Positions 2,275 to 17,200 of a stretch of 17,768 bases of DNA are shown piece by piece; position 1 is the first letter of the stretch, and each line of letters starts with the position of its first letter. This DNA is from Deltaproteobacteria bacterium (GTDB lineage Bacteria; Desulfobacterota_C; Deferrisomatia; Deferrisomatales; JACRMM01): assembly GCA_016218905.1 (NCBI GenBank), contig JACRCS010000355.1, positions 1 to 17,768 of the forward strand. Reading direction: 5' to 3'. Under the pieces are notes generated by a model that saw nothing but the letters and a program-made list of their open reading frames with translations, did not search any database and was not told the DNA's origin. The position numbers and the translations under genes are program-made.

Positions 2275-2367
2275 GCGTGCAGCGTACCGCGTACAGCGTG
2301 CCGCGTTGAAACGGAACCGGGGACAGAGATTTTGAACGTGGAACGCAGCACGCAGCACGCAGAACGA
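2275..2367. repeat. Inverted heptamer array A (queA-tgt)
   Basis: Five contiguous 7-nt units occupy 2275-2309 (first units GCGTGCA and GCGTACC; consensus GCGTRCN, the last one diverged to GCGTTGA). Five 7-nt units of the inverted motif occupy 2333-2367 (for example AGCACGC at 2347 and again at 2354). Opposed as a hairpin, 2275-2311 and 2331-2367 match at about 27 of 37 positions around a 19-nt loop, 2312-2330, that carries a GGAACCGGGGACAG stretch. The array starts 4 nt after the queA stop, and its right arm contains the tgt start and first codons. A period of 7 does not fit coding sequence. It shares its architecture with arrays B, C and D but not its motif. Function unknown; an RNA hairpin or protein-binding role is possible. 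Confidence 0.85.
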
Positions 2368-3474
2368 CCTGGTTTCCGGCTCCTCCAAACCGACCCCGCG
2401 GGCGCCCGGCGGGGAAGGGTCCTGCTCGCGCACGGGGCGGTGGAGACTCCGGCCTTCATGCCGGTGGGGACGCTCGGTACCGTCAAGGCGATGACGCCCG
2501 AGGAGGTCTACGGACTCGGGGCGCGCATGATCCTCGCGAACACGTACCACCTCTACCTCCGGCCTGGGCACGAGGTGATCCGCTCCCTCGGCGGTCTTCA
2601 CTCCTTCATGAACTGGAAGGGTCCGATCCTCACCGACTCCGGCGGCTTTCAGGTCTTCAGCCTCTCGGCCCTGAGGACCATCGACGATGGCGGCGTCACC
2701 TTCCGGAGCCACCTGGACGGCTCGTCCCACCGGCTCACCCCGGAAGGGACCGTCGAGATCCAGGAGGCGCTCGGTTCCGACGTCATGATGTGCCTCGACG
2801 AGTGCCCGCCCTACCCGAGCACCCGGGAGTACCTGGAGCGTTCCCTTGAGCTCTCGAATCGCTGGGCCGAGCGCTCCCTGGCGGCCCGGACGCGCCCGGA
2901 GCTCGCCCTCTTCGCGATCCTGCAGGGAGGCGTCTTCCCGGAGCTCCGCCGCCGAGCGGCCGAGGCGCTGCGGGAGCTCCCCTTCGAGGGGTTCGCCATC
3001 GGGGGGCTCTCCGTGGGAGAGGGGCAGGCGAGGATGCTCGAGACGGTGGAAGCGACGGCGCCCCACATGCCGGCCGACAAGCCTCGCTACCTGATGGGAG
3101 TGGGCACGCCTCTCGACATCGTGGAGGCGGTGGGGCGGGGCATCGATCTCTTCGACTGCGTGCTCCCCACGCGCACCGCGCGCAATGGATTGCTCTTTAC
3201 TTCACAGGGCAAGGTTGTTATAAAGCACGCGCGGTTCGAGCGGGATTCCCGGCCTCTGGATGAGGCATGTACTTGTTATACCTGCCGAAACTACACCAGG
3301 GCCTATTTGCGGCACCTGTACCGGTCACGCGAGGTCTTGGCGTCCCGCCTGAACACCTTTCACAACCTCCATTACTATCTTACCTTGATGGAACAGATCC
3401 GCTCCGCCATCGAGGCCGGAAGGTACGACCGGTTCCTCCACGAGTTCCGGAGTCGGCAAGCACAGCCCTTTTGA
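2332..3474 (+). CDS. tgt: tRNA-guanine transglycosylase (bacterial TGT)
   Basis: TGT swaps guanine 34 of Asp, Asn, His and Tyr tRNAs for preQ1, the step before QueA. The 380-residue protein shows all key residues: the general acid/base Asp102 in TDSGGFQVF, Asp156 and Cys158 in the DEC substrate-binding segment, GGLSVGE at 224-230, the nucleophile Asp275 in [13 protein letters not shown], and the zinc ligands Cys313, Cys315, Cys318 and His344. The start is uncertain. In-frame choices are TTG 2332 and GTG 2338, both inside heptamer array A, and no ATG precedes the conserved region, which begins at about residue 15. The first dozen residues ([11 protein letters not shown]) are therefore repeat-derived. 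From about 3184 to 3400 GC content falls to about 55 percent, well below the rest of the gene, covering the zinc-binding part. Its stop is 22 nt before the yajC start. Confidence 0.96.
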
Positions 3475-3496
3475 AGGGTGTATGAGAGGAGAAAGA

Positions 3497-3814
3497 ATGC
3501 TCTTTTCCGGTGTTGCGTACGCGATGGGTGGTACGGGCGGCGCCGGCGGCTCTGCCCAGGGACTGGCGGGCTTCCTGCCCCTGATCGCCATGTTCGCCAT
3601 CTTCTACTTCCTCTTGATCCGACCCCAGCAGAAGCGCGCCAAGGAGCACAAGGCCATGCTGAACGCCCTGAAGAGGGGCGACGAGGTCGTCACGCAGGGC
3701 GGGATCCACGGCCGCGTCACCGGGATTACCGAGGACGTGGTGAACCTCGAGATCGCGCCCGAAGTGAAGATCCGGGTACAGCGCTCCGCGATCTCCGCGA
3801 TCAAGAAGTCGTGA
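3497..3814 (+). CDS. yajC: Preprotein translocase accessory subunit YajC
   Basis: A 105-residue single-span membrane protein of the YajC family, which associates with SecD and SecF beside the SecYEG channel. The N terminus is short and Gly/Ala-rich, followed by one hydrophobic helix (about 24-41, 'FLPLIAMFAIFYFLLIRP'). Directly after it comes the diagnostic RPQQKRAKEHKAM, and then a small cytoplasmic domain with the motif GDEVVTQGGIHGRV. I chose the ATG at 3497 because an AGGAGAAAG ribosome-binding sequence ends just before it; an upstream ATG at 3482 would place that same site inside the coding region. It follows tgt and precedes secD, the widespread tgt-yajC-secD-secF order. Confidence 0.95.
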   Translation: MLFSGVAYAMGGTGGAGGSAQGLAGFLPLIAMFAIFYFLLIRPQQKRAKEHKAMLNALKRGDEVVTQGGIHGRVTGITEDVVNLEIAPEVKIRVQRSAISAIKKS

Positions 3815-3827
3815 CCCGAAGCCTCGC

Positions 3828-3851
3828 GCCCGCCGGAGACTCCCGGCGGGC
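3828..3851 (+). other. GC-rich hairpin in the yajC-secD gap
   Basis: Arms 3828-3836 and 3843-3851 (GCCCGCCGG and its complement) pair perfectly over 9 bp around a 6-nt loop, 13 nt after the yajC stop. No run of T follows, so it is not a clear intrinsic terminator; a partial terminator, mRNA processing site or stabiliser are possibilities. The rest of the 156-nt gap shows nothing I can name beyond a ribosome-binding sequence (GAGGAGT) before secD and a weak three-unit GCG heptamer register at 3865-3885. Confidence 0.4.
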
Positions 3852-3970
3852 CGTCATGCATCCGGCGACGAGCGATCGGCGCTCGGTCGGGTGACGTCGG
3901 TCGTTCATCCTCCCGCCGCCGACCGATCCATGGCCGCGCGAACCGACCAGGAATACGAGGAGTTGAGTCC

Positions 3971-16136: not shown

Positions 16137-16364
16137 ATGAAAGTCCGAGTCGAGTGCTACGCCGGTTTTCGAGGGGAGGAGACGCCGCGCCGGCTTCTCT
16201 TCGGGACCCGCTCGCTCGAGGTCAGCGACGTCGTCGATCGCTGGCTCGCGCCCGACCACCGTTACTTCAAGGTGATCGGCGAGGACGGCTGCATCTACAT
16301 CATCCGGCACGACGTCGAGGCGGACGAGTGGGAGCTCACGTCGTTCGACTGCAGGAAAGGCTAG
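16137..16364 (+). CDS. Small uncharacterised protein (75 aa)
   Basis: A 75-residue soluble protein that begins MKVRVECYAGFRGEE and continues with a basic strand, 'RSLEVSDVVDRWLAP', then 'YFKVIGEDGCIYIIRHD' and an acidic 'EADEWELTSFDC'. The alternating strand pattern suggests a small beta-rich fold. I have the impression of a widespread short hypothetical family in uncultivated soil lineages, but I cannot name a domain. The ATG at 16137 is preferred over a GTG at 16110 because GGAAGGCGG lies about 9 nt before it and the conserved-looking part begins there; the GTG would also fall in the tail of the upstream terminator. No signal peptide or membrane span. It faces a DUF2007 gene tail to tail with only 7 nt between stops. 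Function unknown. Confidence 0.72.
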   Translation: MKVRVECYAGFRGEETPRRLLFGTRSLEVSDVVDRWLAPDHRYFKVIGEDGCIYIIRHDVEADEWELTSFDCRKG

Positions 16365-16371
16365 TTGTCAG

Positions 16372-16620
16372 CTATTCGGAGGTGAGGATGCGTCCGGCGA
16401 GGATGCCGTCCTCGACGGCTCGCCGGAGGGCGCACCGGGCGGGCTCTGCGTCCTCGGCGGCGACGGCGACCCGCTTCTCCCCCAGCGGCCCGATGGTCAC
16501 GGGGTAGGCGGAGATGCCCATGTCGCGCACGTGCGCGGAAATCCCGGCGGCCTGCAGGACGCCTGCGGCCGCCGCCGCCTCGATGGGGTCCATGGCGACG
16601 TAGACCTCGACCGGTTCCAC
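16372..16620 (-). CDS. DUF2007 domain protein
   Basis: An 82-residue protein with the DUF2007 pattern: an initial strand 'VEVYVAMDPIEAAAAAGVLQAAGI', in which a residue pair after the strand leads into a helix that picks the last-in-chain alternative, then 'SAHVRDM', a glycine-containing turn 'TIGPLGEKRVAVAAED' and a C-terminal helix 'AEPARCALRRAVEDG'. This small ferredoxin-like domain is sometimes annotated as a putative signal-transducing protein; its molecular role is not established. The start is GTG at 16620 with only a weak CAGGG sequence upstream, and an internal ATG at codon 10 would cut into the first strand. The gene is divergent from the exported protein gene at 16706 with 85 nt between them, and convergent with the small gene before it. 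Confidence 0.78.
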   Translation of the reverse strand: MEPVEVYVAMDPIEAAAAAGVLQAAGISAHVRDMGISAYPVTIGPLGEKRVAVAAEDAEPARCALRRAVEDGILAGRILTSE

Positions 16621-16705
16621 GGCTCAGACCCTGTTGCGCCGCGGGGGCGCGTATGTTACGAGAGGGGCTCCGTTGCGGTTCGTTCTGGCTTCGAGGGAGA
16701 GAACC

Positions 16706-17125
16706 ATGCGTCGACTCGGTCTCACAGGGGTGCTCGTCGGGGCGTTCTTTCTCCTGGCCGGCATGGGCGGGGGAGGGGACATGCCGTCCTCGGATACCAT
16801 CCCGCGGCCCAAAGAGCGGTTCACGGGCGACCTCATCGACCGCCAGGGGGTCACCACCCGCGCCACGTATCTCGCCTGCGCCGGGAAGACCTTCTTCCCC
16901 CTCAAGCGAGGCGAGGGCATCCTCATGGTCCCGTTTACGAAGCTCGTCCGGGTCAAGTTCGGGGCCGAGAAGGACACGCAGGTGGAGGCGACGTTCCAGA
17001 TCGAAGGCGGAAAGGAACTCCAGGGCCGACTCCCGCACAATGCGGCGATCACCGGCGCCACCGACTACGGAAACTATCAGATCGAACTGCGCGGGCTTCG
17101 CGAGATTGTGTTTGTAAGGCAGTGA
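16706..17125 (+). CDS. Predicted exported protein of unknown function
   Basis: A 139-residue protein with an N-terminal signal: MRRLGLTGVLVGAFFLLAGMGGGGDMPSSD has a basic start, a hydrophobic core (about 5-19) and a glycine-rich tail. There is no lipobox cysteine, so it is either cleaved by signal peptidase I or stays anchored. The mature part has alternating strands ('FTGDLIDRQGVTTRATYLACAGKTFFPL', 'VPFTKLVRVKFG', 'ATFQIEGGKELQGRL') and ends with 'YGNYQIELRGLREIVFVRQ', so a small beta-barrel or beta-sandwich is likely. I recognise no domain. The ATG at 16706 follows GAGGGAGAG; an upstream TTG at 16634 would bury the signal sequence. Its stop lies 5 nt before heptamer array D and opposite argC. 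Confidence 0.75.
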   Translation: MRRLGLTGVLVGAFFLLAGMGGGGDMPSSDTIPRPKERFTGDLIDRQGVTTRATYLACAGKTFFPLKRGEGILMVPFTKLVRVKFGAEKDTQVEATFQIEGGKELQGRLPHNAAITGATDYGNYQIELRGLREIVFVRQ

Positions 17126-17130
17126 AAGGC

Positions 17131-17200
17131 GGTTCTCGGTTTTCGGTCATCGGTTTTCGGTCGAACCGAGTACCGACAACCGATAACTGACAACCGCTCT
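17131..17200. repeat. Inverted heptamer array D (between convergent genes)
   Basis: Left half 17131-17165: five contiguous 7-nt units (GGTTCTC, GGTTTTC, GGTCATC and so on; consensus GGTTNTC). Right half 17166-17200: five contiguous 7-nt units of the inverted motif (CCGAGTA, CCGACAA, CCGATAA and so on). The halves abut with no spacer and total exactly 70 nt. Folded, 17131-17160 opposes 17166-17195 with about 23 of 30 positions matching and a 5-nt TCGAA loop. The array starts 5 nt after the stop of the + strand gene, and its last base is the final base of the argC stop codon on the - strand. It could serve as a shared two-way hairpin between the convergent genes, though there is no T-run. Confidence 0.88.

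Follow-up and report, generated by a model that had tools for sequence, protein, structure and literature searches.

Among the short tandem repeats of bacteria, the cyanobacterial STRR heptamers are direct arrays of few motifs. Other heptamers are those of Xanthomonas (GGGANTN) and Nostoc (GGGGA(C/T)T), conserved at positions 1-4 and 6 and mostly present as four units (PMC4692102, 2015). The same source gives 70 and 75 inverted heptamer pairs for two xanthomonads, places the arrays more often between aligned than between divergent open reading frames, within 50 bp of stop codons or overlapping them, and mentions three different tandem heptamers reported in Calothrix. The TAACTGA repeats of Beggiatoaceae, cyanobacteria and Bacteroidetes are intergenic heptamer arrays of one fixed unit, mostly placed a short way ahead of start codons; the main genome holds 169 direct-repeat sets and a single indirect one (PMC4679880, 2015, where slippage at heptamers is credited to Mrazek et al. 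2007). REPINs are dispersed extragenic inverted doublets across a spacer (PMC3116915, 2011); among the repetitive extragenic palindromes (REPs) themselves, GTAG termini often provide a TAG stop codon (PMC3733652, 2013), and REPs no more than 15 nt from a stop codon are reported to stall ribosomes (PMC12306157). Here we describe four inverted arrays of 7- or 9-nt units, A to D, in a contig of a Deltaproteobacteria bacterium (GenBank assembly GCA_016218905.1, contig JACRCS010000355.1), whose whole length of 17,768 nt we call the window. We lean towards assigning them to dispersed families of interrupted palindromes, made of short phased units of core plus spacer.

The four arrays of the window

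The arrays and their neighbours are given below; for 10 proteins, one of them without a match, the gene names rest on Pfam, and for the remainder on reading of the sequence.

Array A, 2275..2366: units GCGTNCN, left arm about 2275-2311, inverted right arm about 2331-2366; co-directional gap between queA and tgt (Pfam)
Array B, 8330..8457: left arm of TTAGC+NN units about 8330-8361, inverted right arm of GCTAA+NN units about 8425-8457; co-directional gap between recJ and a phosphoglucomutase/phosphomannomutase-type gene
Array C, 14267..14354: 9-nt units with core TCYGAC+NNN; co-directional gap after an epimerase-family (UDP-xylose-synthase-type) gene and before a tetR-type gene
Array D, 17129..17197: TCGGT+NN units 17129-17161, inverted ACCGA+NN units 17165-17197; convergent gap, with a + strand gene lacking a Pfam match on one side and, on the - strand, an argC-type gene (by reading)

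These arrays, noted in a preliminary description of the window, are genuine and far from random. Across the whole window and over periods 5-13, a search for periodic stretches accompanied by an inverted arm returned only these four loci: A (period 7, segments 2275-2306 and 2334-2366), B (period 7, segment 8428-8457 with its inverted arm at about 8330-8361), C (period 9, segments 14267-14317 and 14318-14354) and D (period 7, segments 17130-17161 and 17165-17194). Dinucleotide shuffles of the window (n=200) did not reproduce these counts, with a mean of 0.015 matches at period 7 (one match in 3 of 200 shuffles) and 0.005 at period 9 (one match in 1 of 200). Compared with 200 shuffles, the predicted folding of B (z -6.67), D (z -6.65) and C (z -4.08) was matched by no shuffle, and that of A (z -1.91) was equalled or bettered by 6 of 200.

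The preliminary description saw one geometry at all four loci, about five units in strict register followed by the inverted motif. The recurring architecture of lag-7 or lag-9 segments with an inverted arm is borne out, but its details are less uniform: the arms are about 19 nt apart in A, 63 nt in B and 3 nt in D, the gap holding D is convergent, and C is mixed, with about five forward units, two inverted and two forward by eye and a predicted fold of three hairpins. The motifs, which had been called unrelated, do differ in sequence, but they follow a common plan, in which 4-6 nt of fixed core are joined to 1-3 free positions, and the cores of B and D are both covered by the degenerate TYRGY. 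In A, B and D the unit measures 7 nt, part of it fixed and part free; the 9-nt unit of C falls outside the heptamer type. The arms of A, B and D are free of GGG and CCC, and C holds one GGG and two CCC.

Anchoring at stop codons, also noted at the outset, holds at each locus and is seen again in relatives (see below): A starts 4 nt, B about 12 nt and D 4-5 nt past the stop codon of the preceding + strand gene, and the stop TGA (14278-14280) of the epimerase-family gene falls within C. By eye, GTAG is present at the recJ stop codon ahead of B. The possibility that the arrays serve as an all-frame stop cassette, in which GCTGA at a 7-nt phase would give TGA in each frame, was dropped, as A and D are without it (by eye). 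At its other end, array A runs into a gene: the tgt reading frame begins within the right arm (start codons TTG 2332 or GTG 2338; region 2332-2370), and the N-terminal extension of Tgt in the window is read from the repeat, alignments of the relatives' Tgt starting at residue 10-13 of the window's protein. Directly behind B lies a GC-rich hairpin of 13 pairs (about 8461-8489), with a promoter-like match at 8474-8502 that is no more than expected by chance. Intrinsic terminators, taken as a GC-rich stem plus a T-run, were absent from A, C and D; one terminator-like site of 5 pairs (8401-8417) lies within the loop of B, and the window total of such sites was 7, against 7.8 in shuffles. Searched with the covariance models of Rfam 15 up to E 1, the window gave 0 matches.

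Arrays with a common core in related genomes

The proteins closest to the window RecJ are metagenome ones (74-66% identical); that of a Deltaproteobacteria bacterium reaches 67% and those of Deferrisomatales bacteria 64-65%. The best RecJ identity in Acidobacteriota was 44%, and UGD neighbourhoods did not place the organism. The closest relative examined, G551 (RecJ 67%), belongs to an order, which we take to be Deferrisomatales, sampled with 12 genomes; a phylum sample comprised 297 genomes including G551 and a second array-rich genome, G571. Array counts were controlled with the reversed pattern, and matches overlap, so that places are fewer than matches. Four consecutive TYRGY-NN units matched 148 times in G287 (control 40), 124 in G466 (6), 99 in G489 (3), 82 in G571 (20) and 68 in G551 (4), and this search met identical 26-mers at many places in G287. 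The narrower TYAGC-NN x3 gave 60+52 matches in G551 (control 0) and 52+40 in G571 (control 1+2); the 100 matches listed for G551 fall at about 46 places. At 42 loci of G551 and 24 of G571, 49 paired arrays faced inward and 0 stood in the reverse order, with 32 unpaired arms. Exact inverted forms extended across the phylum sample, the TCAGC form to 42 of 297 genomes (reversed control 4) and the TTAGC-led form to 37 (reversed control 8). Inverted pairs of the D type, TYGGT, occurred in 3 of the 297 (G551, G486 and G489; control 0), at two places in G551. The core of B (TTAGC) is that of the relatives' TYAGC arrays, its 63-nt loop exceeding the loop lengths permitted in those search patterns. B and D are not unique to the window. 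The reversed control was itself strong in G374 (58+39), G305 (21+17) and G430 (15+16), which points to further inverted-array families with the core ARTCG.

In relatives, then, arrays with a common core stand at tens of places per genome, paired inward, and some genomes repeat the loop and flanks as well. Among 18 copies of the TYAGC array in G283, G321 and G357, loops had a median identity of 0.68 (quartiles 0.51-0.81), whereas stretches 50-100 nt outside had medians of 0.58 and 0.54 in a lenient global alignment, a moderate contrast. A left-hand CCGGAAAC...GTTTCCGG hairpin was seen by eye in 12 of these 18 copies (L374-L391), and together with the alike loops it indicates that a composite, larger element is repeated there. 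Since loop and flanks are repeated in some genomes, elements have spread as units in these. The earlier assertion that the arrays are not copies of one mobile repeat is not supported by this comparison, as one core recurs at tens of places in relatives and most of the 18 copies share loop and flanks. Orthologous gaps differ between the window and G551: the secF-recJ gap holds an array only in G551, and the queA-tgt gap holds one (A) only in the window.

A filter independent of the core found 13 inverted period-7 runs in 588 kb of G551 (shuffle mean 1.7). Inverted runs at periods 6 (6), 9 (3) and 12 (9) were also above shuffles (0.3 each), an excess that we tentatively take as coding-sequence periodicity. 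In 122 kb of G489 the same filter gave no inverted period-7 run, though direct ones were present. Several cores coexist in G551, namely TCAGC, AACCAA, CTGGTCC, GACGACC and 8-nt units, and at one locus (L246, contig C27, about 38499-39003) the TCAGC array is itself tandemly repeated with a higher-order unit of about 84 nt. G287 and G489 carry a composite repeat consisting of a heptamer array, a GGCCTTCGGCC hairpin and then an 8-nt array, for example GGCTAGGC, at the following places:

L125, 11080-11760 and 15370-16000: composite repeat
L126, 12208-12570 and 16180-16800: composite repeat

Heptamer arrays were also observed near ugd genes in Hymenobacter, Prevotellaceae, a gammaproteobacterium and Bacteroidales (L033, L054, L013, L052, L078), that at L033 looking inverted by eye.

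In G551 and G571, where the gene calls come from a simple finder based on codon usage and made for this analysis, the arrays occupy gaps inside operons and begin at the stop codon. Among 48 elements, 43 lay in co-directional gaps, 1 in a divergent and 0 in convergent ones (4 unclassified), compared with a background in the G551 sample, over 201 gaps measuring 60-400 nt, of 149 co-directional, 30 divergent and 22 convergent. Gaps of that sample holding period-7 or period-8 runs were co-directional in 13 of 13 cases. In 31 of the 43 co-directional elements the first core stood no more than 15 nt from the stop codon (one overlaps the gene call by 16 nt), in 11 the stop codon fell within the unit preceding the first core, and in 37 the last core was 7-58 nt ahead of the next called start.

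The units of these arrays obey a simple grammar. Over 335 core units in the 48 elements (the duplicate element L246 was excluded from this set) we counted 17 mismatches, a figure that underestimates core change because the detector allowed one mismatch per core and required exact ends; the two spacer bases vary widely and are nearly free. Adjacent spacers were identical in 16 of 143 cases, against 17.4 expected, and in 6 of 121 cases, against 10.7 expected, in 51 further elements from other genomes, some of which owe their alike loops to common descent and so do not count as independent. Opposing spacers were fully complementary in 6 of 97 cases in G551 and G571 (12.8% in shuffles) and in 4 of 82 cases in the further elements (8.9% in shuffles, P 0.109; per base 20.7% against 29.6%, P 0.003), making 10 of 179 when pooled, or 5.6% against 11.0% in shuffled pairs (P 0.007).

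Origin and role of the arrays

The spacers bear directly on the mechanism first suggested for the window, local generation in each gap, with slippage producing the direct units and hairpin template switching the inverted arm. The different motifs of the window loci would suit such a process, as would the long homogeneous direct arrays of G571 (contigs C319, C334 and C377), which are slippage-like, and the tandem repetition of a whole array at L246 in G551. However, spacers next to each other match no more often than by chance and opposing ones pair below chance, which argues against recent slippage and against copying of one arm from the other by template switching; the spacer predictions of this mechanism thus fail on the relatives' TYAGC arrays, where the tests were run, A to D being too few. 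One core stands at tens of places within G551 and recurs in 42 of 297 genomes, which is likewise hard to reconcile with separate origins, and we regard local generation as unlikely. The spacer pattern fits two readings: perfect repeats and perfect palindromes may be lost, or the core may be recognised by a reader. If a DNA- or RNA-binding factor read the core at a 7-nt phase in both orientations, selection would keep core and phase while spacers drift, and the core would vary by lineage since the factor varies. Conserved cores with free spacers, the occurrence of one core across many genomes of the phylum, the unlike loops of G551 and the lack of sense-strand asymmetry, as expected of a strand-symmetric DNA site, all agree with such recognition sites; the several cores of G551 would nevertheless demand several factors, and 7 bp is unequal to the DNA helical repeat, so that we find this explanation doubtful, if conceivable.

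A role in messenger RNA was also considered, in which intercistronic hairpins arise independently in each operon gap and are selected for their structure, with an effect on mRNA decay or on ribosomes at termination. Their placement between a stop codon and the next start within operons and the strong folds predicted for B, C and D speak for it, as does the ribosome stalling reported for REPs close to stop codons (PMC12306157). Selection for pairing in mRNA should make U.G exceed A.C on the sense strand, yet a first test gave 8 wobble pairs against 7 A.C and 9 other, small numbers left once 122 pairs that were fully consensus and 78 that carried several changes had been set aside. A second, coarse test gave 12 against 14 (n=26, again small), with the strand taken as that matching the TTAGC-led pattern, unit register unchecked, 12 of the 38 loci not co-directional and some GCTAA opposite cores uninformative. 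Wobble pairs are thus not favoured, opposing spacers avoid pairing, a structure needs no shared core, and A hardly folds beyond its shuffles; this account seems to us quite improbable, and the suggestion that something reads the shape of the arrays finds no support in this null result. A further reading would define the arrays by architecture alone, as one class of inward-facing arrays with a lineage-specific core, a 7-nt (or 9-nt) phase, spacers that neither repeat nor pair, a place between stop and start codons in operons, and a core-specific reader. Xanthomonas GGGANTN, Beggiatoaceae TAACTGA, TYAGC, TYGGT and GCGTNCN would then all be instances and G-quadruplexes would be beside the point; we hold this only as a tentative and rather unlikely generalisation.

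The explanation that we favour, dispersed families of interrupted palindromes, combines a fixed core of 4-6 nt and 1-3 free positions per unit with two arms facing inward across a variable loop. We infer both an enzyme and a function for the arrays. As non-autonomous hairpin elements they would depend on a postulated enzyme for their copying; the core would be retained through recognition, and spacers matching their neighbours or pairing across the arms would be lost, perfect repeats and palindromes being unstable. By analogy with the work on REPs, a hairpin so near to a stop codon may delay ribosomes at termination or protect the mRNA end upstream. On this reading, several such families would each be represented by one member in the window.

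Several observations weigh against this explanation or narrow it. We infer the dispersal of the window's own arrays from the relatives, and it is least supported for A, whose type gave inverted arrays in 0 of 297 phylum genomes (reversed control in 2), and for C, the phylum searches having covered the cores of A, B and D. With TYRGY-NN x4, G442 (11 matches, control 27) and G510 (6, control 8) stayed below their controls and 5 of the 12 order genomes had zero matches. In G551 the loops are unlike one another (median identity 0.45, shuffled 0.43), so that arms were kept there without the loop and copying of whole elements is not seen. Outside the order the preference for co-directional gaps is weaker: 38 classified loci, from 40 in the phylum of which 2 were without the pattern and one came from G551, comprised 26 co-directional, 6 divergent, 3 convergent and 3 in-gene cases, and a second set (n=20) comprised 12, 3 and 4, with one at an edge. 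The absence of sense-strand asymmetry in both wobble tests leaves an mRNA role without support from pairing. Counts of Y1 transposase matches follow the arrays only loosely, with 12 each in G551 and G287, 0-1 in five genomes without arrays and 2 each in the array-rich G571 and G466, and no TYAGC array was present within about 1.5 kb on each side at the 12 Y1 loci examined (of 36 listed).

At these 12 loci no linkage of TYAGC arrays to RAYT transposases was seen, and for other arrays the picture is equivocal. Near Y1 matches, L291, L295 and L301 each hold a single two-unit TYRGY match, L291 (G287) and L293 (G489) have other heptamer or octamer runs no more than 1.5 kb away, and L295 and L299 have low-complexity runs.

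Comparison with described repeats

The window arrays are best read as a variant of a little-studied and poorly explained kind of repeat. Heptamer arrays have so far been described in few genomes and for few motifs at once. The relatives examined here suggest a grammar shared across the phylum, with a fixed core, a free spacer that avoids repetition and pairing, inward arms and a start at the stop codon. Such a grammar makes origin and role testable. It is evidence against slippage of recent date and, in arrays that lack G-runs, against an account by G-quadruplexes. Among the papers listed in the literature searched, from which subscription journals were mostly absent, none treated TYAGC arrays in this phylum. 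The initial view that no named family fits was nonetheless too strong, at least for B and D, given the heptamers with two free positions, inverted pairs and stop-codon overlap described in PMC4692102.

The closest known kind is that of the Xanthomonas and Nostoc heptamer arrays (PMC4692102), followed by REPs and REPINs. Array A follows the plan of the former (GCGTNCN, with positions 1-4 and 6 fixed), all four window arrays lie near or over a stop codon with three of four gaps co-directional, and the occurrence of one motif at many places in a genome is found for TYAGC in G551 and G571. Unlike the Xanthomonas and Nostoc repeats, which the source presents as one G-rich motif per genome and studies as a G-quadruplex former, the window holds several cores, the arms of A, B and D are without G-tracts, and all four arrays are inverted or partly inverted. 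The dispersal of TYAGC inverted doublets in many copies in relatives recalls REPs and REPINs, but REPs are small palindromes with a GTAG or CGTC tag associated with RAYTs, whereas the arms here are phased 7-nt arrays. With the cyanobacterial STRR heptamers the arrays share the tandem heptamer. The TAACTGA repeats (PMC4679880) are mostly direct and near start codons, in contrast to the inverted arrays after stop codons in the window; they too are intergenic heptamers, however, and in our own reading their opposite-strand unit, TCAGT+TA, fits a TYRGY core plus two bases.

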